Shown here piece by piece: positions 7,495-19,494 of a DNA stretch of 64,000 nt. The stretch comes from Bacteroidales bacterium (lineage in GTDB: Bacteria > Bacteroidota > Bacteroidia > Bacteroidales > F082): assembly GCA_017549805.1 (NCBI GenBank), contig JAFYNJ010000004.1, positions 1 to 64,000 of the forward strand, in the 5' to 3' direction. Position 1 is the first letter of the stretch, and every line of letters starts with the position of its first letter. Under the pieces are notes generated by a model. It worked only from the letters and a program-made list of their open reading frames with translations, ran no database searches and was not told where the DNA came from. A program made the position numbers and the translations under genes.

Positions 7495-9087
7495 ATGAAT
7501 ATCAAGCTATTATTATCTAACATATTGTTGCTTGCGACATTGGTCGCCAGCGCCCAGCAACCCCAATCAAAAGCTCAACTCAATGCCCAGAAATTTGCCA
7601 CTACGCTCTATTTGATCGACAATTTCTATGTGGATACGGTAAATTCAGAAAAAGTGGTGGAAGACGCCATCGTGGCCGCTTTGAGGGAATTGGATCCCCA
7701 CTCCGCCTACATCTCCAAGAAAGACGTGGAGAAAGCCAACGAGCCTCTAGTAGGCAGCTTCGAGGGTATCGGCGTGACTTTCCAACTCATCCGCGACACC
7801 ATCACCGTCATCGGCCCCACTCCTGGCGGTCCCTCCGAGAAAGTCGGCATCATGGCGGGCGACCAATTCATCAAGATTGACGGAGAAAATGCTTTCGGAA
7901 AGAAAATCGATAATGAATATGTGCAGAAACACCTGCGCGGCAAGAAAGGCACCAAGGTGACCGTCAGTGTCAAACGCGGCAGAGACAAGGAACTGATGGA
8001 TTTCGAGATCATCCGCGACAAGATCCCGTTGAACAGCATCAACGCTGCATTCATGATGGAAAAGCATGTGGGTTACATCAAGTTGGACCGTTTTGCACAG
8101 GATTCCGACAAAGAATTCAAGAACGCCATGGAAAAGCTGCAAGCCCAAGGAATGAAGTCGTTGATCTTGGATCTGCGTAGCAACTCAGGTGGTTATCTCA
8201 ACACCGCCATCGAGATGGTGGACGAGTTCCTCGACGCCAACCAGTTGATCGTCTATACCGAAGGCTTGAACTCAAAACGCCAGGAATGGCGCAGTTCCGA
8301 AAAGGGCGCATACACCGATGGCAAACTTGTTGTGCTCATTGACGAGGGATCGGCTTCGGCCAGCGAAATTCTTTCGGGAGCGGTACAAGATCACGACCGT
8401 GGCGTGTTGATTGGACGCCGTTCTTTCGGCAAGGGATTGGTGCAACGCCCCTTCAACCTGCCCGACGGCGCCGTCATCCGACTCACCACCGCCCGTTACC
8501 ACACCCCCACGGGACGGTGCATCCAGCGGCCTTACGAAGGTGGAGCGGAGGACTATTATAAGGAAATGACCAAACGACTGGAACACGGCGAGTATTACCA
8601 TGCCGACAGCATCCATTTCCCCGACTCCTTGAAATATAAGACCGACAAGGGACGCATCGTGTACGGTGGTGGCGGCATCATGCCCGACATTTTCATGCCT
8701 GTGGACACCAGCTACAACAGCAAACTTTACACGAACCTTGTGAGAAAGGGCGTCTTCAACAAATACACCGTTGACTATGCCATGGCCCACCGCGACCAGG
8801 TCAAGGCCGAATACAAAGAATTCAGCCAGTTCAACAAGAAATTCCAAGTGACCGAGGCCATGGTTGGCGAAATCAAGAAACTGGCCGAAACGGAAAAAGT
8901 CAAATGGAACGAAGAGGAATACCGCCGTTCGGAGAAATACATCAAGTTGCAGGTCAAAGCCTTAATCGCTAGAAATATTTGGGAAACGCAGCAATATTAT
9001 GAAGTTACCCTGAAAGAAGACCCCACCATCAAGAAGGCCCTTGAGGTGATTGGCAACGACAGGGAATATCATAAATTGCTTAACTAA
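7495..9087 (+). CDS. ctpA: C-terminal processing protease, S41A (CtpA-like)
   Basis: Periplasmic serine protease of 530 aa. A signal peptide (about 1-20, ends ASAQQ) is followed by an N-terminal helical region, a PDZ domain (about 90-170, GIGVTF through VKRGR) and the S41 catalytic core. The Ser/Lys dyad is in place: Ser in DEGSASASEILSGA and Lys in GRRSFGKGLVQ. A C-terminal extension of about 150 residues follows. Bacteroidota encode several such Ctp proteins that trim envelope proteins; the substrate here is unknown. It ends the operon and is followed by a terminator. Confidence 0.93.
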   Translation: MNIKLLLSNILLLATLVASAQQPQSKAQLNAQKFATTLYLIDNFYVDTVNSEKVVEDAIVAALRELDPHSAYISKKDVEKANEPLVGSFEGIGVTFQLIRDTITVIGPTPGGPSEKVGIMAGDQFIKIDGENAFGKKIDNEYVQKHLRGKKGTKVTVSVKRGRDKELMDFEIIRDKIPLNSINAAFMMEKHVGYIKLDRFAQDSDKEFKNAMEKLQAQGMKSLILDLRSNSGGYLNTAIEMVDEFLDANQLIVYTEGLNSKRQEWRSSEKGAYTDGKLVVLIDEGSASASEILSGAVQDHDRGVLIGRRSFGKGLVQRPFNLPDGAVIRLTTARYHTPTGRCIQRPYEGGAEDYYKEMTKRLEHGEYYHADSIHFPDSLKYKTDKGRIVYGGGGIMPDIFMPVDTSYNSKLYTNLVRKGVFNKYTVDYAMAHRDQVKAEYKEFSQFNKKFQVTEAMVGEIKKLAETEKVKWNEEEYRRSEKYIKLQVKALIARNIWETQQYYEVTLKEDPTIKKALEVIGNDREYHKLLN

Positions 9088-9157: not shown

Positions 9158-9165
9158 TACCTTTG
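9158..9165 (+). promoter_or_regulatory. Promoter -7 box for the gingipain K/R operon
   Basis: TACCTTTG, predicting a leader of about 70 bases before the ATG at 9244. An in-frame GTG/ATG reading from 9163 would start inside the promoter, so it was not used. Confidence 0.75.
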
Positions 9166-9243: not shown

Positions 9244-12200
9244 ATGAAAAGAGCAAGTTTACTTTTCTCTGCATTCCTTCTGATTGGAATGCTGTTCAGC
9301 GCTCAAGTGATGGCTCAAGGCCGCATCAACTTGAATGCCGCTAAAACAACTCAAGAATGCAGAAACGCCACCCTTGGCAGCCTTTCCGCATCATTCTCCT
9401 ACGATGCTATTGAAAGCACGGAGGTTACCACCGAAAAAGGAGTGTTCTCCATCATCACCATGGGCAACTCACTGGCCGCCGGTAATATCGGCGAACCCCA
9501 AGTGCCTGTTACCCGCGAACTCATCGCTGTTCCTTTCGGTGCAACCCCAGTGGTGACCGTCAAGAACTACACGGTGGAAGAATACAATCTTGCCGACTTC
9601 GGCATCAACAGGCTCTATCCCCAACAGCCTTCCGTCAGAAAGGACGAAAAAGACGTGAAGTTCGCCTACAATGAAGCCGCTTACGCAACCAAAGGCTACG
9701 ACGAGAGTCGCCCCATCGCTGAAGTGACCGTCATGGGTACCATGCGTGGCATCCAGATCGGAGCCTTGCAGCTCAACACCCTGAGATATGACGCTTCAGC
9801 CAACAAGGTTCTCGTTTATAACAATGTTGAAGTGGAAGTCGAATTCAAGAATGCCGACCTCGCTCTCACCGAAAAGACCTTGGTCAACACCTACAGCCCT
9901 TACTTCAGGACGGTGTACGCCTCCTTGTTCAACGACAGGGCCATCAACGACGTTTACGACGATCACCCGGACCTTTGGGCCGTTCCAGTAAAGGTTTTGG
10001 TTATTGCCAATCGTATGTTTGAGGATGCCATGCAGCCTTGGATCACTTGGAAGACCGAAAGAGGCTTCTACATGGATGTCAACTACACTGACCAGATCGG
10101 CACCAGCGCCAACGCCATCAAGACCTTCATCACTGACAAGTACAACGAAGGCGTAGCCAATGGCCAAACTCCCTCATTCCTCATCATTGTCGGTGACAAT
10201 GCTCAAGTTCCCGCTTCACAAACCGGTTCCGCTTCACACTGCGTGACTGACCTTTACTACTACGCTGTGGCTGGTGGTTCCAGCGATTATTTCGCCGACA
10301 TGTTCCACAGCCGCTTCACTTGCGAGTCCGTCGATGAATTCATTACCGTCCGCGACAAAGGCTTGATGTATGAGCAATACACCATGCCCGATCCTTCCTA
10401 TCTGAGCAACGTTCTGTTGATTGCCGGTTGGGACTCCTCATGGAATCCGAGAATTGGCAAGCCCACCATCCAATACGCTACCAACTACTATTACAACGCT
10501 GATCACGGATTCGCCAATGTTTACGAATTCTTACAGACTCCTTACAACCAGCCATACGCAAGCCTGAGCACTGGCGTCGGCTACGTCAACTACACCGCCC
10601 ACGGCAGCAACACCAGCTGGGCCGACCCGAGCTTCACCAACAGCAACGTCAACGGCTTGACCAACCAGGACAAGTATTTCTGGGCTATGGGCAACTGCTG
10701 CCAAGCTGCCGACTGGGGTATCTCCGGCAAGTGCTTGGGTGAAACCTTCATCACTGCTCCTAACAAAGGTGCCTTTGCCTACATCGGTTCCTGCCCCAGC
10801 TCCTACTGGTATGAAGACTACTACTTTGGCGTAGGTGCAACACATACACAGAATCAAATGCCTTTGTTTGAAAGCTCCACCATGGGTGTTTACGACGCCA
10901 CTTTCCAGGATGACTTCAACAGCTTGTCAGCTGTGACCTTCGTCGGCAACCTTGCTGTCGCTTATGCTCATGCCAATGGTTACGAAGGCAGTGTCTCCGA
11001 CCAATACTACTGGGAATCCTATCACGTCCTCGGCGACGGTTCCATCTGCCCCTACCATGTGAATCCTATTGAGAACACCGTTTCACACATGCCCACCCTG
11101 CCCATCGGCATGGACTTCTATACCGTGGAAGCTGACCCAGGTTCCTACGTTGGCATCTCCAAGGACGGCGTGCTCTATGGCGCTGGCGAAATCGGCGAGA
11201 CTGGTACTGCCGACATCCCGATCGAACCCATCACCTCAGGTGGCAACGTGAAGATCGTGGTGACCCATCCTCAACGTCAACCTTATATTGCTGAAGTTCC
11301 CGCTGCAGCCCTGACAGGTGCTTACGTGGCAGTTGACAACTTTGCCATGAACGTGGATCAAGCCAACTATGGTGAGACCATCGACCTCAACATTACCGTG
11401 AAGAATGTCGGAACCCAAGCCGCTGGCAACCTCGTGGCTACCCTTACAACGGAATGCGAATATGTTGAGATCTTGGCAAACGAAGCTACCGTTACCAGCT
11501 TGGATCCCGACCAGACCTTCACCATGGAAGGCTTCCAATTCAGCGTTGCTGAGAACGTTCCCGACAAGACCAAGGCTCAGTTCTTCGTCACCGTAACCGA
11601 CGGAACCGACACCTGGGAAAGCAAGATCAACATTGAGCTCCACGCTCCCGTCCTCGCCTTCGAATCCATCGAAAAAGACGACACCAACCTTTCCCTTACC
11701 TTCAAGAATACGGGTACCGCTCCTTTCTACGGCGGCACACTGAACATCTTCAGCAGCTCCACCAACTTGACCTTCGAGGAAACCTCCATTGTTTTCGAGG
11801 ATGTCGTTGAAGGCGGCGCCACCGTCACCCTGAACGTTCCTTATACCGTTGATGAAACTGTCGAACCCGGAACCACCTTCGAAGTTGCCTACTACTTGGC
11901 CACTGGTATCTTGTCACTCTCCGGCGAGTATGTATTCTCATACGGTGCCATCATGGAAGACTTTGAGTCGGGATCATTCAGCTCCGACTGGACCTTCAGC
12001 CAAACCAACGCTTGGACAATCGTCGATGGCGGCGTCAAAGGCACAAAATGTGCAAAATCAATGAACGAAGGCATTCACTCTTCAGACTATTCAATGACAT
12101 TGACCGTCGAAGTCCTGGCAGCAGGCGAATTGACCTTCAAGTACACTGTCTCATCCGAGAACAATTACGACAAGCTCTTCTTCTACATGGACAACCAACA

Positions 12201-12858
12201 GAAGGGCAATTGGTCAGGTTTTGTTGATTGGACGGAATTCTCGCAACCCGTGACCGTGGGCACCCACACCTTCAAGTGGGAATACCACAAGGACAGCTCC
12301 GTGAGCAGCGGCGACGACTGCGCCAAGGTTGACGACATCAAGTTCCCGCCTGTCAATGTCGTTTCCTTCCTGAATCCTGTGAGAGAACTTTCCGCCGAGG
12401 TTGACGACGCCACTGTCACCCTTACTTGGTTGGACAACAGTGATGCTTCAAGCTATGTGGTCATGCGTGACGGCGAAGAAATCGCTACGGTTTCCGAATC
12501 CACCTTCAGCGAGGTTGTTGACTACGGCAGCTACGAATACTGCGTCATCTGCAAAAATGATGCAGGAGCCCTTTCATCACCTGCATTCGTCTCCGTTTTG
12601 GTTGAAGATTTCACCGGTGTGGAAGAAAACGCTTTGTCCATCGAAGTCTATCCCAACCCTGTCAACGACATGCTGTACCTCAACAGCAATGCTGAATACA
12701 CCTACGCCTTGTATAACAGCATGGGTCAGGAAATGGCCAAGGGCAACGCCCATGGTTCACATCGGATCAGCGTCAATGGTTTGACCAATGGCATCTACAT
12801 CCTGCGTATTACCAATGGCAACCAGACCAAGGTCCAAAAGATCATCGTTGAAAAATAA
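9244..12858 (+). CDS. Gingipain K-like C25 cysteine protease, T9SS cargo
   Basis: Secreted cysteine endopeptidase of 1204 aa, predicted Lys-specific. Layout: signal peptide about 1-25; prodomain about 26-232; catalytic domain about 236-600; Ig-like domain about 620-690 (GSYVGISKDGVLYG, as in Kgp); CARDB-like domains to about 880; cleaved-adhesin-like domain about 903-1035 (DFESGSFSSDW); Fn3 about 1045-1115; T9SS sorting domain about 1130-1204 (YPNPVND to the end). Residues that align with Kgp D388/H444/C477 are D397, H453 (TAHGS) and C486 (GNCC), with identical spacing. D525 (YWYEDYYF) aligns with the Kgp S1 residue D516, and K133 with prodomain K129. The only basic residue close to the pro/mature junction is R232. 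It is first gene of an operon with the Arg-gingipain-like gene 14 bases downstream. Confidence 0.95.
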   Translation: MKRASLLFSAFLLIGMLFSAQVMAQGRINLNAAKTTQECRNATLGSLSASFSYDAIESTEVTTEKGVFSIITMGNSLAAGNIGEPQVPVTRELIAVPFGATPVVTVKNYTVEEYNLADFGINRLYPQQPSVRKDEKDVKFAYNEAAYATKGYDESRPIAEVTVMGTMRGIQIGALQLNTLRYDASANKVLVYNNVEVEVEFKNADLALTEKTLVNTYSPYFRTVYASLFNDRAINDVYDDHPDLWAVPVKVLVIANRMFEDAMQPWITWKTERGFYMDVNYTDQIGTSANAIKTFITDKYNEGVANGQTPSFLIIVGDNAQVPASQTGSASHCVTDLYYYAVAGGSSDYFADMFHSRFTCESVDEFITVRDKGLMYEQYTMPDPSYLSNVLLIAGWDSSWNPRIGKPTIQYATNYYYNADHGFANVYEFLQTPYNQPYASLSTGVGYVNYTAHGSNTSWADPSFTNSNVNGLTNQDKYFWAMGNCCQAADWGISGKCLGETFITAPNKGAFAYIGSCPSSYWYEDYYFGVGATHTQNQMPLFESSTMGVYDATFQDDFNSLSAVTFVGNLAVAYAHANGYEGSVSDQYYWESYHVLGDGSICPYHVNPIENTVSHMPTLPIGMDFYTVEADPGSYVGISKDGVLYGAGEIGETGTADIPIEPITSGGNVKIVVTHPQRQPYIAEVPAAALTGAYVAVDNFAMNVDQANYGETIDLNITVKNVGTQAAGNLVATLTTECEYVEILANEATVTSLDPDQTFTMEGFQFSVAENVPDKTKAQFFVTVTDGTDTWESKINIELHAPVLAFESIEKDDTNLSLTFKNTGTAPFYGGTLNIFSSSTNLTFEETSIVFEDVVEGGATVTLNVPYTVDETVEPGTTFEVAYYLATGILSLSGEYVFSYGAIMEDFESGSFSSDWTFSQTNAWTIVDGGVKGTKCAKSMNEGIHSSDYSMTLTVEVLAAGELTFKYTVSSENNYDKLFFYMDNQQKGNWSGFVDWTEFSQPVTVGTHTFKWEYHKDSSVSSGDDCAKVDDIKFPPVNVVSFLNPVRELSAEVDDATVTLTWLDNSDASSYVVMRDGEEIATVSESTFSEVVDYGSYEYCVICKNDAGALSSPAFVSVLVEDFTGVEENALSIEVYPNPVNDMLYLNSNAEYTYALYNSMGQEMAKGNAHGSHRISVNGLTNGIYILRITNGNQTKVQKIIVEK

Positions 12859-12872
12859 CAATTGATTTCTCA

Positions 12873-15800
12873 ATGAAAAAAACCGTTTTATTACTGTTAT
12901 CGATATTGCTCATCGGTGGAGCCTTTGCACAAAAGGCTCCCTCGACGAAGCTGATCTCCAGCTCCGAAGAGCGTATCGTGGTCAACTTCCAGCTCAACGG
13001 CTTCAACACCGTGCGTGTGCAAACCCCTCAAGGCGACCAGTTCACCGTGAGCGTCCCCAAGATGGCTGCCATGCTTGAGGCTGGATCTCCCGACCTGCCA
13101 TCCTTCCCTATCCCGACCATCATCGGCGATAGAGCGGAAATGACCGTCAACGTCATCGATGCACAATACAGGGATTACTCCAACATGGCAATTGCTCCTT
13201 CCAAAGGTAGCATTAGCCGTCAGGTCAACCCCAACGACGTGCCTTACACTTACGGCGACATGTATCAACAGAACGCCTTCTGGCCTGCCACTCAGGCACA
13301 TCTCGAAAAACCCTACATTTTGAGAGATTTCCGCGGCCAGAACATCATGGTCCAGCCTTTTGCCTACAACCCTGTCACCAAGACGCTGCGCGTGTATGAA
13401 AGCCTGACCATCGAGATGACCAAGGTGAGCGACAACGGCGCCAACCAGAAAAACGCACGCAAGAGCAATACCATCAAGATCGATCCCGAAAACAAGGCTC
13501 AGTATGGACGTCGTTTCATCAATTTCGGTGAGACAGGTGCCAAGTACATCTTTGACGAGGACTTCGGTGAAATGCTCATCATCTGCACAGATGCCTATAT
13601 GGACAATCTGCAGCCATTAGTGGACTGGAAGAACCAATCGGGTCGCCCAACCACAATGGTAAGCCTTTCCACAGTCGGTGGGAATAACATCGAAAGCATC
13701 AAGAGTTACGTCAGCAACCTTTATAACGACCCCACCCACAACCTTGAGTACGTGCTTCTCGTTGGTGAATACAACGATATCACACCTAAAAACTTAGGAT
13801 ATGGTTCCGGTGGTACCGTGTTTTCCGACAATTACATTGGAAAACTGGAAGGCAATGACGACTATCTGGAGGTCTTGGTCGGCCGTCTCTCGGTGGCAAA
13901 TGCTGCCGATGCAGATGTGCAAGTCAACAAGATCATCTATTTTGAGCGCGATGTCCAAGAAGGTGCTACTTGGTGTGAAAAGGGTTTGGGTATTGGCGCT
14001 ATCGGTGCGGGTAGCGGTCACTATGGCGAGGACGACTATCAGCACATCGACTTGATTCGCGACACCCTCTTGCACTACACCTACACGACAGTCACAGACC
14101 TTCACCAGGGTGGCGGTGCAAGCGTTTCCTCCATCAGCAACACCATCAACCAAGGCGTCAGCATCATCAACTACTGCAACCACGGTTCAGAGACCACTTG
14201 GGGTGTTGCCAACTACAGCACGAGCGACATTGCCGCTTTGACTAATGACGAAATGTTGCCTATTGTTTGGTCAGTGGCTTGCTTGAATGGCAAGTTCGAC
14301 GTGGGCACATGCTTCGCTGAAGCATGGCTTCGTGCTACGAACAACGCAACAAACGCTCCTACGGGTGCCGTAGGTGGCATGTTCTCATTTGTTTCACAGC
14401 CTTGGCAACCGCCCATGTACGGTCAGGACGAAATGGTTGACATCTTGACGGAATGGCACAGCGCCGACCAATTCAACCACACTTTCGGCGGTGCTTCGTT
14501 GAACGGAAGCATGTATGTCCTTGACATGGCTCCAAATGATTCATATCAAACATTCAATGCATGGATTCTTTTCGGTGACCCATCGATGATGTTGAGAACT
14601 GCCAACCCAACCAACATGAATGTCACTATGAATCCCTCCGTGCTGATGATTGGCATGAACACCCTTGAAGTGTCAGCTGACAACACCGCTTATGGTATCG
14701 CCACTTTGTCGAATGCCGAAGGCATTATCGCAACAGCTAAGATCATCGACGGATCGGCCACGCTGGCATTCCCTGCTTTGAGCAACGTCGAGACCCTCAC
14801 CCTCACCGTGATGGGTTTCAACAAGGTTACCGAGATTGTTTCAATGGATGTTCTGCCTGCTGAAGGCGCTTTCGTTTCCGTTGATTCCTTTACCCCAGGC
14901 AACGTCCCCGTCAACGAGGAACAGCTGATGTCCATCACCTTCAAGAATGTTGGTGTTGACCCGACTTCAGGCACAACGAATGTTGTCCTTTCAAGCACCG
15001 ACAACAACATCACTTTCTCTGACAACGAAGGCTCATTCGGTGTTCTCGCCGCTGACGAAATGATTACCTTGACAGATGAATTTGCATTTACCGTTGCAGC
15101 CGGTGTTCCCGATGGCACCAAGATCCAAATCGATGTTACCTCAACTTGTGGATCCGAGGTTTGGACTGGAAAGGCCAAGATCACCGTGGGTGCTCCTATC
15201 GTTGAGTTCGACAGCTTCGAAGCAATGGGCGGCTATACCCCGGGCGAATCGCAAAACATTGTCGCAAACTTCAAGAACATCGGCCACTACATGGCTACCA
15301 ATGCCGTTGTGAACATTTCATCCTCCAGCGAATACATTAGCTTCGCTTACGAGTCGGTTGCACTTGGAACCATCGACCCCGAAAGCACCGTATCCGCAGT
15401 GTTCAATGTAACCATTTCCGAATCATGCCCTGAAACGGAAGTGATCAGGGTAGCCTTCGAGCTGGTTGCCGACAATGAAGTTGTGGCATTAGGAACCGGC
15501 GTTCTGAAGAACACCTGCAATGTGGTATTCGAGCTCACGGATTCCTGGGGCGACGGATGGAACGGCAACCAATTGGTAGTTAGCTTCGACGACGGCACAC
15601 CGACGCAAAACCTCACCATCCAAGAAGGCAACTCAGCGACCTACACACTTGAAATCGGCATCGGCGTCCATGTGACATTGGGATGGCAAAACGGAAACTA
15701 CACCACCGAGTGTTCCTTCACAGTGTCGTACCAGGATGGCGACCAAATCACCTCTGCCTCTGGCAGCAACTTGGGACCGGCCTATAATTTTGAGTTTGAT

Positions 15801-16328
15801 GTGAACTGCGCTGGTGATCCTGTCATCACGACGAACGACCCCGTCACCGAGTTGGCCTACACGATTGATAGTGTCAACATGACCGTCACCTTGACTTGGG
15901 AAGCTCCTGCCAACAAGGATGCCATCAACTATCTCGTCACCCGCAACGGTGAAGAGTTGGCACAAGTCAAGACAAATGAGTTTACCGACACGGATCCCAC
16001 GGATTATGCAGCCTACTGCGTTATCGCACAGTATCTCTCCGGTAACTCCGAGCCGACATGCCTTGACCCGATCGAGGATCTCCTCGGCGTTGAGGAAAGC
16101 GAAAACAATATCCACATCTATCCCAACCCGGTCAACAGCACCCTGTACATTACAGATGGCAATGCCGAGTTCAGCTATGTCATGTTCAACGGCATGGGCC
16201 AGCAGGTGGCCAAAGGCACTGCCCAAGGCACTGCGACCGTCAATGTCAGCGGCATGAGCAAGGGTGTTTATTTCTTGCGCCTCACTTCAGGATCGCAAGT
16301 AAGCATCCAAAAAGTAGTTGTGGAATAA
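12873..16328 (+). CDS. Gingipain R-like C25 cysteine protease 1, T9SS cargo
   Basis: Secreted cysteine endopeptidase of 1151 aa, predicted Arg-specific. Layout: signal peptide 1-20; Rgp-type prodomain to about 224 (IAPSKGSISR, ILRDFRGQ, YNPVTKTLR); catalytic domain about 225-560; IgSF-like domain about 575-665; two CARDB-like domains; a DSWGDGWNGN domain about 885-985; Fn3-like domain; T9SS sorting domain about 1075-1151. Catalytic H437 (NHGSE) and C470 (VACLNG) keep the Rgp 33-residue spacing. D388 (GEDDYQH) aligns with RgpB S1 Asp163 and prodomain R116 with the inhibitory Arg126. The loop that carries Glu152 in RgpB is one residue shorter and has no Glu. The pro/mature junction reads GAK|Y, with Lys224 where RgpB has Arg. 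It is second gene of the operon. Confidence 0.95.
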   Translation: MKKTVLLLLSILLIGGAFAQKAPSTKLISSSEERIVVNFQLNGFNTVRVQTPQGDQFTVSVPKMAAMLEAGSPDLPSFPIPTIIGDRAEMTVNVIDAQYRDYSNMAIAPSKGSISRQVNPNDVPYTYGDMYQQNAFWPATQAHLEKPYILRDFRGQNIMVQPFAYNPVTKTLRVYESLTIEMTKVSDNGANQKNARKSNTIKIDPENKAQYGRRFINFGETGAKYIFDEDFGEMLIICTDAYMDNLQPLVDWKNQSGRPTTMVSLSTVGGNNIESIKSYVSNLYNDPTHNLEYVLLVGEYNDITPKNLGYGSGGTVFSDNYIGKLEGNDDYLEVLVGRLSVANAADADVQVNKIIYFERDVQEGATWCEKGLGIGAIGAGSGHYGEDDYQHIDLIRDTLLHYTYTTVTDLHQGGGASVSSISNTINQGVSIINYCNHGSETTWGVANYSTSDIAALTNDEMLPIVWSVACLNGKFDVGTCFAEAWLRATNNATNAPTGAVGGMFSFVSQPWQPPMYGQDEMVDILTEWHSADQFNHTFGGASLNGSMYVLDMAPNDSYQTFNAWILFGDPSMMLRTANPTNMNVTMNPSVLMIGMNTLEVSADNTAYGIATLSNAEGIIATAKIIDGSATLAFPALSNVETLTLTVMGFNKVTEIVSMDVLPAEGAFVSVDSFTPGNVPVNEEQLMSITFKNVGVDPTSGTTNVVLSSTDNNITFSDNEGSFGVLAADEMITLTDEFAFTVAAGVPDGTKIQIDVTSTCGSEVWTGKAKITVGAPIVEFDSFEAMGGYTPGESQNIVANFKNIGHYMATNAVVNISSSSEYISFAYESVALGTIDPESTVSAVFNVTISESCPETEVIRVAFELVADNEVVALGTGVLKNTCNVVFELTDSWGDGWNGNQLVVSFDDGTPTQNLTIQEGNSATYTLEIGIGVHVTLGWQNGNYTTECSFTVSYQDGDQITSASGSNLGPAYNFEFDVNCAGDPVITTNDPVTELAYTIDSVNMTVTLTWEAPANKDAINYLVTRNGEELAQVKTNEFTDTDPTDYAAYCVIAQYLSGNSEPTCLDPIEDLLGVEESENNIHIYPNPVNSTLYITDGNAEFSYVMFNGMGQQVAKGTAQGTATVNVSGMSKGVYFLRLTSGSQVSIQKVVVE

Positions 16329-16352
16329 CTTTCAGGTATTTCATTCAATTAC

Positions 16353-16386
16353 AAAAAAATCCCGTCATTACTGACGGGATTTTTTT
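16353..16386 (+). terminator. Strong terminator ending the gingipain K/R operon
   Basis: Perfect stem AAAAAATCCCGTCA / TGACGGGATTTTTT with a 4-base loop. Its last T is the first base of the next promoter box (16386), so termination and re-initiation are abutted. Confidence 0.95.
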
Positions 16387-16393
16387 ATCTTTG
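16386..16393 (+). promoter_or_regulatory. Promoter -7 box for gingipain R-like gene 2
   Basis: TATCTTTG, 18 bases before the ATG at 16411. It gives this gene transcription independent of the first two gingipain genes. Confidence 0.75.
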
Positions 16394-16410
16394 CGACACC
16401 TAATTAAATA

Positions 16411-19400
16411 ATGCTAAAAATGAAAGCTAAAACTCTCACCATTCTCTTGGCACTTTTGTCACTCGTTTCGTTCGGTCAACAATGGACCGGCATTTCACAG
16501 AACACACCCGATGGCATCCAAACCACTTTGCTGTCATCATCAGAATCCAACATCACGGTCAGCATACAAGTCCCCGGGTTCTACACCTCCAAGGTGACCA
16601 CGCCCCGTGGCGAGGCCGACATCGTTTCGATTCCCAACGCTGTCAACGTCGCAGCAGCGGGTGAGCCAAACCTTCCGATGATTCCCATCCCAGCCATCAT
16701 CGGCGACAAAGCGCTGATGCAAGTTAGGGTCGTCAAGTCCGAATTTGTTGACTTTGAGAATGTGGAAATCGCTCCTTCGAAAGGCGACTTCCCGCGTTCC
16801 ATCCATCCCGACGACGTGCCCTATACCTACGGCGAAATGTATCAGCAAAACGCCTTCTTCCCATCACAATTGGCCAAGTTGGATGAACCTTACATCCATC
16901 GCGATGTGAGAGGACAGAACATGATGGTCACTCCTATTGCATATAACCCGGCTACCAAGGTTCTCAGGGTTTACAAGCACATCATATTGAGCATGGTCCG
17001 GATTGGCGAGGATGATAGAAACATCATTTCCAACCGTTCAAAAACGATGGTCCTGGATCCCGAATTCAAGGCGATCTATCAAAGCCGATATATCAACTAC
17101 GAAGCATCAATGGCCAAATACACCCCCATCGAGGAAAACGGCGAGCTTCTCATCATCTGCCATGATGCCTTCATGAATGCCATGGAACCCTTTGTGGCAT
17201 GGAAAAAGCAGATCGGCCGCCCCACAACCATGGTTGGAACCAGTGTGACGGGCAATTCTGCAACTACCATCAAGTCGTACATCGACACTTATTATGCTTC
17301 CCATCCCAATTTGACCTCGATTCTTCTTGTTGGCGATGTTGCCCAAATTCCCGGTACTTACGTGAATGCAGGCTCAGGATACACTGGCTATTCAGGTTAC
17401 GGTGACCTTCCATACGGCCAAACCGTTGGCACCGACAGCTACAACGAAGTGATCATCGGTCGATTCTGCTGTGACAACGAAGCCCAAGTGACCAACCATG
17501 TCAACAAAGTCTTGAACTACGAGAGAGACCTTGACGAAACTGCCACTTGGCTCACCATAGGACAAGGTGTGAGCAAGAACGAAGGAGCCGGACAAGGTCA
17601 CTATGGAGAAGCCGACTACCAACATATCGACAATATCAGGAATGATCTACTGGATTACAACTACACTGAAGTTCACCGCGACTACCAGAGTGTCACAGGT
17701 GTGACGGCCAGTGCAGCCACCATCAGCCAACACATCAACGAAGGTGTGAGCATCATCAACTATTGCAATCACGGCTCGGAGACCAGCTGGGGCGTTTTCA
17801 GCTACAGCAACTCAAATGTCAATTCCTTGACCAACGATTACAAGTTGCCATACATTATTTCCGTGGCCTGCTTGAACGGAAAATACGACCATGGTGGAAA
17901 CGGTTGCTTCGCAGAGGCTTGGATGCGTGCTACCAATAACAGCACAGGCAATCCAACCGGCGCTATCGGCGGCATGTTCTCCTATATCTCCCAACCTTGG
18001 ACACCCCCTCAATATGGCCAGGACGAAATGGTAGATATCCTTGTGGAATCCATCAGCAGTACCATCAGGCGCACCATGGGCGGTGTGTCGATCAACGGCA
18101 ACTTACGCGTTCTCGACCTGGGTGCCACACAAAACCAGAACAAGGGAACCTACAACTGCTGGATCCTCTTTGGCGACCCCACCCTCACCTTGCGCAATGC
18201 CATTCCTGCCACCATGACCGTCACAGCCCCCACCCAAATTGGGTCGGACGACAGCAGTTACACCTTGACGGCCACCAACGGCAATGGTGCCTTGGCTACA
18301 CTGACGCGTGACGGTGAAATCATGGGATCCGCCACCATTGAAAACGGCATCGCAACCATCACCTTTGCAGCCCCGGAGACCACCGGAATGGCCACCTTGA
18401 CCGTTTTCGGCTACAACAAAAAAACCTATACGACCACCATTGAAATCGCCTCCGGCAATACCATCAACGTAAATGCCACGGCTGTGACGCCAACCATCCC
18501 CTTGGGCGGCAGCACGCAACTCACCGCCACCGTCTTCGGCCTCGACAGCACTTTCACCTATCAATGGACCCCCATTGAATCGCTGGACGATCCCACCCTA
18601 CAATCCCCTACTGCCACACCTGAAACCACCACGGTTTATACCTGCACCGTGACCTGCGGCGACTTGACGGGAACCTCAGCATGCACCGTCTCCGTGGTTT
18701 GTCCTCCCACCAACTTAACCGCTGTAGTGCAAGATGATGTCAACGTATTGCTCAACTGGGAGGCCGCTCCAATGGCAAGATCCTACATTGTTTACCGAAA
18801 CGACATCATGGTGGCTGAAAACGTCATAACAACCAGCTGGACCGATATCGGTTTGGAGCCCGGAACCTACAGCTATCAAGTTGCCACCAACTATTCCGGA
18901 GTGCTTTCTCCCATGTCAGAGACAGCTGCCGTCACCATTGACGGAACAACAACCTGTCCTGCGCCTGAGAACTTCACCGGGGAATACTACTGGGAAGGTC
19001 CTGAATTCGGTGCAAAACTGGCTTGGGACAGAGCTGAATACGGGGTTACCCTCGACAGGTTCGAAGTATACAGAAGCGATGACAACGAAAGCTTCAAGTT
19101 GGTCAACCGCATTGTCAATACACCTTCCATAACGCATTATGAATGCAGGGATGTGTTGGAGGAAGCTGGCGAGTACACCTATCGCATCATCGCCTTCTAC
19201 CTGAACGGCTGCGAATCGGATCCCATCGACATTGAGCTCACAATCACTTCCATCAACGGGGCTTACACAAACAACTTCTCAGTGTACCCCAACCCCACCG
19301 AAGGAAAGGTCACGGTAACAGCGGATAACCTAAAGCAAATCCGTATTGTCAACCATCTTGGACAAACCGTAAGCCAAATCGCCACCGACAGCAATAGCGT

Positions 19401-19494
19401 CACTATTGATCTCGCCCCGTTTGGCAAAGGCATTTATGTGATACTGATCGATTCAGACGAAGGCGTTTCCTCCAAGAAAATCATCGTTCAATAA
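16411..19494 (+). CDS. Gingipain R-like C25 cysteine protease 2, T9SS cargo
   Basis: Secreted cysteine endopeptidase of 1027 aa, predicted Arg-specific. Layout: signal peptide about 1-23; Rgp-type prodomain to 236; catalytic domain to about 590; IgSF-like domain about 605-685; a PKD/Ig-like domain with YQWTP about 690-768; two Fn3 domains about 770-945; T9SS sorting domain about 950-1027. It has the full RgpB set: E391 (Glu152), D402 (Asp163, GEADYQH), H454 (NHGSE), C487 (VACLNG) and prodomain R129 (Arg126). The junction SMAK|YTPIEE closely matches RgpB EATR|YTPVEE but with Lys236 replacing Arg. Start is 16411, or 16420 (MKAKTL). It heads a long plus-strand run through the nuclease, hisS and hutH with no visible terminator. 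Confidence 0.95.
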   Translation: MLKMKAKTLTILLALLSLVSFGQQWTGISQNTPDGIQTTLLSSSESNITVSIQVPGFYTSKVTTPRGEADIVSIPNAVNVAAAGEPNLPMIPIPAIIGDKALMQVRVVKSEFVDFENVEIAPSKGDFPRSIHPDDVPYTYGEMYQQNAFFPSQLAKLDEPYIHRDVRGQNMMVTPIAYNPATKVLRVYKHIILSMVRIGEDDRNIISNRSKTMVLDPEFKAIYQSRYINYEASMAKYTPIEENGELLIICHDAFMNAMEPFVAWKKQIGRPTTMVGTSVTGNSATTIKSYIDTYYASHPNLTSILLVGDVAQIPGTYVNAGSGYTGYSGYGDLPYGQTVGTDSYNEVIIGRFCCDNEAQVTNHVNKVLNYERDLDETATWLTIGQGVSKNEGAGQGHYGEADYQHIDNIRNDLLDYNYTEVHRDYQSVTGVTASAATISQHINEGVSIINYCNHGSETSWGVFSYSNSNVNSLTNDYKLPYIISVACLNGKYDHGGNGCFAEAWMRATNNSTGNPTGAIGGMFSYISQPWTPPQYGQDEMVDILVESISSTIRRTMGGVSINGNLRVLDLGATQNQNKGTYNCWILFGDPTLTLRNAIPATMTVTAPTQIGSDDSSYTLTATNGNGALATLTRDGEIMGSATIENGIATITFAAPETTGMATLTVFGYNKKTYTTTIEIASGNTINVNATAVTPTIPLGGSTQLTATVFGLDSTFTYQWTPIESLDDPTLQSPTATPETTTVYTCTVTCGDLTGTSACTVSVVCPPTNLTAVVQDDVNVLLNWEAAPMARSYIVYRNDIMVAENVITTSWTDIGLEPGTYSYQVATNYSGVLSPMSETAAVTIDGTTTCPAPENFTGEYYWEGPEFGAKLAWDRAEYGVTLDRFEVYRSDDNESFKLVNRIVNTPSITHYECRDVLEEAGEYTYRIIAFYLNGCESDPIDIELTITSINGAYTNNFSVYPNPTEGKVTVTADNLKQIRIVNHLGQTVSQIATDSNSVTIDLAPFGKGIYVILIDSDEGVSSKKIIVQ

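Follow-up and report, generated by a model that had tools for sequence, protein, structure and literature searches.

Three tandem C25 zymogens and their predicted specificities

The 64,000-nucleotide stretch analysed here (the window; positions 1 to 64,000 of contig JAFYNJ010000004.1, assembly GCA_017549805.1, from a Bacteroidales bacterium of the GTDB lineage F082) carries three genes for C25 family peptidases in tandem. The encoded proteins resemble the gingipains of Porphyromonas gingivalis and are called K-type (Lys-gingipain-like), R1 and R2 (both gingipain R-like). A preliminary description of the locus had proposed that these zymogens activate each other reciprocally, the K enzyme cutting both R-type precursors after Lys and an R enzyme cutting the K-type precursor after Arg. 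The three genes are:

9244..12858, plus strand: K-type zymogen P0001, 1204 amino acids, with C25 prodomain, C25 catalytic domain, immunoglobulin (Ig)-like domain and type A sorting tail of the type IX secretion system (T9SS) (Pfam)
12873..16328, plus strand: R1 zymogen P0002, 1151 amino acids, RgpB-like (Pfam and phmmer)
16411..19494, plus strand: R2 zymogen P0003, 1027 amino acids, RgpB-like (Pfam and phmmer)

Translation was started at the ATG codons at 9244, 12873 and 16411, respectively, and Pfam finds a C25 propeptide, a C25 catalytic domain, an Ig-like domain and a T9SS sorting tail in all three proteins. In phmmer the K-type matches Lys-gingipain (4rbm, E 4.9e-138) and, with its prodomain, 5mun (E 7.2e-51). 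R1 and R2 match gingipain R (1cvr, E 3.1e-82 and 2.5e-82) and its prodomain (4ief, E 1.6e-30 and 1.1e-37), and their Pfam scores for the catalytic domain (188.8 and 190.3 bits) and the propeptide (119.5 and 117.5 bits) are far above the cut-offs of 23 and 22, as expected for gingipain R domains. The presence of Por_Secre_tail in each protein, together with PorU and PorV above cut-off in the genome (the only two components searched for), marks the three as T9SS cargo. The T9SS sortase PorU, encoded twice elsewhere in the genome, belongs to the C25 family as well; the window proteins differ from it, however, scoring 55.7 (R1), 44.7 (R2) and 21.4 bits (K-type) against a PorU cut-off of 420.

The residues were compared in two sets of homologues, and their conservation, their exchange and the gene content of the genomes are given as observed there. 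Within the genus, 98 of 99 genomes have a K-type match (weakest best match E 1.2e-214). The stretch around a strong K-type match was taken from 80 of these genomes, the window excluded; 76 stretches hold K-type and R1 and 34 hold all three genes. The R2 set comprises 41 distinct rows, 30 of which were chosen for closeness to the window R2. Across the order, 393 genomes were searched, 5 of them of the same genus; the propeptide family is present at E 0.001 in at least 226, and at E 1e-40 a K-type match is found in at least 195 and an R-type match in at least 162. Outside the genus 60 stretches were fetched and 40 pair loci (L278-L317) were chosen for a K-type near an R-type on one strand, so that they give no adjacency rate. 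The R-type rows number 211 distinct ones, 210 of which are readable (junction and loop of L195 are not); the K-type loop is unreadable in L112 (partial) and L317 (no prodomain). Copies of the window proteins (L045, L075, L003, L004, L008) and identical cores (L189, L226, L227, L252) were removed from distinct-row counts but still stand in some alignments behind the R1 junction, R2 tree, composition and rate figures. Paralogues encoded in the window's own genome (three R-type, three K-type) and a few rows of the same genus (L251-L253, L226, L227) are counted among the rows outside the genus alignments.

Specificity was assigned from the inhibitory loop of the prodomain and from the pocket (S1) that binds the residue before the cut (P1):

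9640..9642, plus strand: Lys133 in the K-type inhibitory loop, matched to the Kgp loop by alignment
13218..13220, plus strand: inhibitory-loop Arg116 of R1 (ISR), aligned with the RgpB loop ISR and kept in 83/83 R1 rows
16795..16797, plus strand: inhibitory-loop Arg129 of R2 (FPR), from the alignment, kept in 41/41 distinct R2 rows
10594..10818, plus strand: K-type active-site and S1 residues T451, H453, C486, W522 and D525 (Kgp T442, H444, C477, W513 and D516, where H444/C477 is the numbering that we assume for the catalytic residues)

In Kgp the P1 side chain is bound by Asp516, Thr442 and Trp513 (PMC6426963), in RgpB by Asp163 and Trp284 (PMC4357240). The loop residue of RgpB is Arg126 (PMC4357240; numbered R129 in PMC13366090), that of Kgp Lys110 in mature-propeptide numbering, where it is the most susceptible site (PMC3677877). 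The window K-type aligns with Kgp over the full length of prodomain and catalytic domain and has the gingipain K loop Lys (K133) and S1 residues (T451, W522, D525); between Ig-like domain and tail it has a CARDB match and no other further named domain in Pfam. R1 (D388/H437/C470) and R2 (D402/H454/C487) carry the equivalents of the S1 Asp163 and of the catalytic His and Cys. Like RgpB and RgpA, they combine C25 prodomain, catalytic and Ig-like domains and share the loop Arg, the D163, H, C and W284 equivalents and a Tyr as first mature residue. In R2 the M288 equivalent is Gln, unlike in RgpB; pocket numbers of RgpB beyond D163 and W284, such as M288, are presumed.

These positions are nearly invariant. 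The equivalent of Kgp T442 is Thr in 84/84 K-types of the genus and in 62/65 outside the genus alignments (3 Ser), and those of W513 and D516 are kept in all 149 distinct K-type rows. Among R-types, the D163 equivalent is Asp in 122/124 genus rows (2 Glu) and the W284 equivalent Trp in 122/124 (2 gaps), with 87/87 for both outside. The loop tip is Lys in 147/147 distinct readable K-types (83/83 in the genus, 64/64 further) and Arg in 210/210 R-types (124/124 and 86/86). Thus S1-pocket and loop residues agree with the predicted K/R specificities of the three window enzymes, and without exception among the distinct readable rows the loop residue is the one after which the enzyme itself is predicted to cut.

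Activation junctions in the window and in the genus

The junctions between prodomain and catalytic domain, and the Arg residues near them, lie at:

9937..9939, plus strand: Arg232 (FNDR), sole basic residue of the K-type pro/catalytic linker (translation, genus alignment)
9949..9951, plus strand: Asp236 of the K-type, aligned with mature Kgp residue 1 (phmmer)
13509..13514, plus strand: Arg213-Arg214 (Arg214 at 13512-13514), alternative Arg sites upstream of the R1 junction (sequence)
13542..13547, plus strand: R1 junction Lys224↓Tyr225 (GAK↓Y), Lys224 codon at 13542-13544 (translation, R-type alignment)
17086..17088, plus strand: Arg226, alternative Arg site upstream of the R2 junction (sequence, alignment)
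17116..17121, plus strand: R2 junction Lys236↓Tyr237 (SMAK↓YTPIEE), Lys236 codon at 17116-17118 (translation, phmmer)

Translation and alignment confirm the Lys that had been described at both R-type junctions. The first mature residue of RgpB (Tyr) falls on Y237 of R2 in phmmer; Y225 of R1 was matched to it via the alignment with other R-types, as R1's own phmmer match begins at residue 228. At the position of the RgpB junction Arg (pArg229, EATR↓YTPVEE) both window proteins thus have Lys, and they also differ from RgpB and RgpA in that their genes stand in tandem with a K-type. An Arg junction does not define the gingipain R family, because 123 of the 210 distinct R-type rows have Lys. For the K-type the described Arg junction holds in part: Arg232 is present and is the only basic residue of the linker (the nearest others are K211, R222 and, downstream, the Lys of VPVK). 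However, because the first residue of mature Kgp (Asp) falls on D236, the exact Kgp P1 position is Asn235, and Arg232 lies three residues upstream of it, a difference from Kgp itself.

Kgp, whose junction is cut after Arg, depends on R gingipain for its maturation. The preliminary description had all junctions of P. gingivalis cut after Arg, which agrees with published accounts of RgpB and RgpA (PMC4357240, PMC10319874). In RgpB the loop is cleaved at Arg126 before the junction at Arg229 (PMC4357240), and for Kgp full and half pro-forms are described (PMC3677877).

Among the 210 distinct readable R-type rows, all of which have the aligned Tyr, the residue just before it is basic in 188 (123 Lys, 65 Arg) and another one in 22. 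By these alignments the basic character of the R-type junction is well beyond chance, and the choice between Lys and Arg is much less constrained. In seven R-types (L207, L208, L264, L266, L272, L291 and L334) an Asp stands immediately in front of the conserved Tyr, without a basic residue next to it.

R1 and R2 might also mature themselves at another Arg (the loop Arg, Arg213/214 or Arg226), with the Lys junction trimmed later or unused, an explanation that we consider improbable. Arg213/214 and Arg226 lie about ten residues upstream of the junction Lys; R1 Arg214 aligns with R2 Arg226, and Arg is found there in 120/124 R-types of the genus, although the position is His or Gln (mostly His) in 70/86 other readable rows. 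The Arg belongs to a conserved R-[FY]-[IL]-N-[FY] motif and is as fixed as other invariant residues, and the retention of a basic residue before the Tyr would be odd for an unused site. RgpB, moreover, uses its junction Arg229 (PMC4357240). That neither class could mature itself is nevertheless doubtful, as the upstream and loop Arg residues leave self-cleavage routes and, as described below, one R-type of the window's genome has Arg at its junction and one K-type has Lys.

The three genes differ in how their junctions vary within the genus. R1 has Lys in 61 rows, Arg in 9 and Lys one residue upstream of P1 in 13 (n=83). R2 has 20 Lys and 21 Arg among 41 orthologues, and of 20 basic columns only this and one other come near to 50:50; the closest pairs that differ in Lys/Arg are 0.90 identical, and the tree requires ten changes versus 14.0 in 200 shuffles (lowest 10). 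The K-type linker holds Arg in 80/83 distinct readable rows (FNWRD-type 42/42, other type 39/42, one repeated core still counted). In class-A linkers Arg235 is present in 9/12 rows without Arg232 and in 8/30 rows with it (Fisher p 0.006). Two K-types of the genus (L187:404-3934 and L188:13029-16559) have the linker NTNAIN, in which no residue is basic.

Among the 76 loci with K-type and R1, 64 combine K-Arg with R1-Lys (shifted Lys counted as Lys), 9 are Arg/Arg, 1 is Lys/Lys and 2 have no basic K-linker residue with R1-Lys. The 34 three-gene loci (K, R1, R2) divide into Arg-Lys-Lys (14, the combination of the window), Arg-Lys-Arg (12), Arg-Arg-Arg (5), none-Lys-Lys (2) and Arg-Arg-Lys (1). 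These numbers bear on the strictest form of reciprocal activation, a two-key lock in which the K-type is matured only by R enzymes and R1 and R2 only by the K enzyme. The window residues (Arg/Lys/Lys), the 64/76 reciprocal loci, the linker Arg and the 74/83 R1 rows with Lys all favour it, as does the tendency of Arg235 to replace a missing Arg232; on independent tree pairs, however, this swap is not significant (on average 3.5/7 opposite and none the same way, median p 0.125). Both the even split of R2 and the nine Arg/Arg loci speak against such a lock. With the results outside the genus and in the window's own genome added, we regard an obligate lock as quite unlikely.

Junctions outside the genus, composition and exchange rate

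Of the 40 pair loci outside the genus 36 were scored. The four left out are L317, L315, whose K-linker lacks a basic residue, and L285 and L291, whose R-type has Asp; L300, which holds two pairs, was scored once (Lys/Lys; its other R-type has Gln). The same residue occurs at both junctions in 32/36 pairs (17 Lys/Lys, 15 Arg/Arg), compared to three pairs with K-Arg and R-Lys and one of the reverse (Fisher p 4e-6), a further point against the lock. Reciprocal activation as first proposed is therefore supported in part: the residue pattern that it predicts is seen in most K-R1 pairs of the genus, with loop and S1 residues that fit, but neither consistently with R2 nor in most pairs outside. The comparison of homologous loci had been suggested in the preliminary description, with random junction residues as the outcome that would speak against the idea; R2 comes near to this, whereas K-R1 is mostly reciprocal. 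In all 40 loci except L293 and L314 the K-type lies upstream of the R-type, with about 4 kb between them in L294.

Matched junctions could be read as the mark of one shared maturase per genome. We set this aside, as the matching follows Lys usage (0.71 in Lys/Lys versus 0.54 in Arg/Arg loci; Mann-Whitney p 1.4e-6 for the R-type state) and G+C (0.369 versus 0.452). Judged from these separate comparisons, composition is the simpler cause of the matching.

A logistic fit on each protein's Lys/(Lys+Arg), trained on 78 R-type rows outside the genus alignments, predicts 41.6/83 Lys for R1, where 74 are seen (shifted ones counted as Lys), and 18.7/41 for R2, where 20 are seen. The estimated exchange rate is 0.51 (0.17-1.06) for R1, 6.97 (2.37-60, 60 being the top of the grid) for R2 and 1.21 (0.66-2.22) outside. 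In simulations on the R1 tree with a Lys root, the observed Lys count was reached in 0/400 runs at the lower bound of R2 and in 3% at the outside rate. R1 therefore seems more constrained than R2, with only a marginal excess over the order as a whole, and the comparison of R1 with R2 is limited by shared ancestry and by the sampling of R2 among close relatives. To call the Lys bias of R1 selection outright was rejected, since against the order-wide rate it is only marginal (P 0.02-0.03, uncorrected).

A possible trans-activation network and its alternatives

The genome of the window has 15 C25 matches, of which 2 are PorU, 4 score as K-type and 5 as R-type. The R-type junctions are Lys, Lys, Arg, Lys and Lys; the K-type linkers hold Arg in 3/4 and only Lys in one. 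The R-type with the Arg junction (G000:C9:135933-137015) and the K-type with the Lys junction (G000:C11:45350-46540) would each be cuttable by their own class if specificities are strict and are possible starters. Mutual dependence would therefore not be closed at the genome level, though the cluster in the window looks closed: judged by residue identity, own-class maturation appears available within the same genome. The lock would also leak, because RgpB mutated at both the Arg126 and Arg229 sites keeps about 1/80 of the mature activity (PMC4357240).

What fits better than an obligate mutual loop is a trans-activation network of tandem gingipain zymogens with two gates each, in which K-R1 reciprocity is the commonest local wiring and not a closed two-member loop; we see this reading at an even balance between acceptance and doubt. 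At the first gate the tip of the prodomain inhibitory loop (Lys in K-types, Arg in R-types) would mimic the P1 residue that the enzyme itself prefers; it would thereby block S1 and be cuttable by the same or a like enzyme. The second gate would be the pro/catalytic junction, which stays basic while Lys and Arg can replace each other; either residue would be cuttable in trans, since the genus encodes gingipains of both predicted specificities together. In the window, the Arg junction of the K-type would be cut by an R-type, and the Lys junctions of R1 and R2 most simply by a K-type, or by another Lys-cutting protease. The Arg-junction R-type or the Lys-junction K-type of the genome could start the network. 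Specificities, co-secretion, cleavage and the order of events are what we infer in this scheme.

Among the matches listed, 16 genomes have an R-type match but lack a K-type one at E 1e-40. In the five with the strongest R-type matches (below 1e-100), which were examined, the junctions are Arg+Arg, Lys, Arg, Arg and Lys. In one Arg-junction case there is also a truncated C25 fragment, with a score slightly higher as K-type (122 versus 103), which leaves four clean cases, and one of the two Lys-junction genomes has a second, weaker R-type besides the one read. Within the limits of draft genomes, a K-type thus seems unneeded for a Lys junction to persist.

Such genomes would also suit a third party cutting after Lys and Arg alike, e.g., a trypsin-like or other surface protease, host gut trypsin or a PorU-linked step, which would cut both junctions. 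We think this unlikely, and give the same small weight to its corollary that the Lys/Arg identity holds no wiring information. The exchange in R2, the tracking of composition outside the genus and the Lys junctions in 2/5 examined genomes where no K-type was found are in line with it. According to a review, PorU is involved when gingipains lose their prodomain (PMC10202324), and recombinant RgpA of P. gingivalis is processed and released without need of RgpB or Kgp, with PepK offered as another Lys-cutting enzyme of that species (PMC10319874). However, a residue-blind protease predicts no split, whereas in the same genus Arg prevails in the K-type linkers (80/83) and Lys in R1 (74/83), which speaks against it.

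Several results also weigh against the network reading. The Lys junctions of the two genomes without a found K-type need another Lys-cutting protease. The ten changes of R2 equal the minimum of the shuffles, so that exchange in R2 is not wholly free of ancestry. R1 keeps Lys (74/83, 13 of them shifted) beyond the 41.6 predicted from composition, and its exchange rate is below that of R2, though overlapping the order-wide rate. The K-type linker keeps Arg in 80/83 rows although K-type proteins are richer in Lys (0.613). The Lys excess of R1 and the Arg of the K-linker together hint that exchange between K-type and R1 is not simply free. Finally, the AlphaFold proform models are poor for R1 (17 rows, mean predicted local distance difference test score 56.2) and for the K-type (10 rows, 36.5), and nothing on junction exposure was therefore taken from them.

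A variant of the network would make K-type and R1 a selected two-key pair, in which each enzyme opens its own loop gate while the junction needs the other specificity, and R2 and the paralogues drift. This we offer as a tentative idea, on the unlikely side. If true, the pair would reach full surface activity only once both enzymes are exported, and would be a bacterial protease pair with an activation AND gate encoded in specificity.

The literature on gingipain activation behind this comparison concerns one oral species, P. gingivalis. Among the titles and abstracts listed for gingipain zymogens, proforms, processing and cross-activation and for gingipains with rumen or Bacteroidales, none describes reciprocal gingipain activation or such a comparison of junctions. 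Over 357 distinct zymogens with a readable loop, the position that carries the enzyme's own predicted specificity (the loop) is set apart from the one that is basic and exchangeable (the junction), and this gives for each lineage a direct prediction of which enzyme would mature which precursor. Final prodomain removal is now testable by comparing Lys/Lys, Arg/Arg and mixed pairs.

Promoter-like boxes and genes around the cluster add the following features:

9158..9165, plus strand: Bacteroidota -7-like box TACCTTTG upstream of the K-type gene (pattern match only)
16386..16393, plus strand: -7-like box TATCTTTG just upstream of R2 (pattern match only)

The pattern TAnnTTTG, which we take to be the consensus of the Bacteroidota-type -7 element, occurs 46 times in the whole window versus 29.1 expected, an excess consistent with such an element. 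In the genus loci a -7-like box is present in 23/26 R1-R2 gaps of up to 300 bases. Operon coupling as a cause of K-R1 reciprocity was rejected: the K-R1 gap is at most 60 bases in only 13/76 loci, and in 51/76 loci a -7-like box lies no more than 120 bases from the first ATG in the frame of R1 (predicted starts).

An S41 C-terminal processing peptidase (window 7495-9087) adjoins the cluster upstream on the same strand and could have a part in processing. Elsewhere in the genome, the PorU genes stand in tandem (G000:C5:11298-14561 and 14664-17885; 1168.7 and 963.3 bits, above cut-off) and are followed by PorV (18051-19193). Two further K/R gingipain clusters (G000:C9:129587-156526 and C11:38867-46540) have mostly frames of about 1400-1860 amino acids and show Arg/Arg, Arg/Lys and Lys/Lys junction combinations. 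The ten named relatives are Bacteroidales or Bacteroidia assemblies; the records of 4/10 name yak, water buffalo, goat and red deer, and four others bear RUG labels, which presumably stand for rumen genomes.

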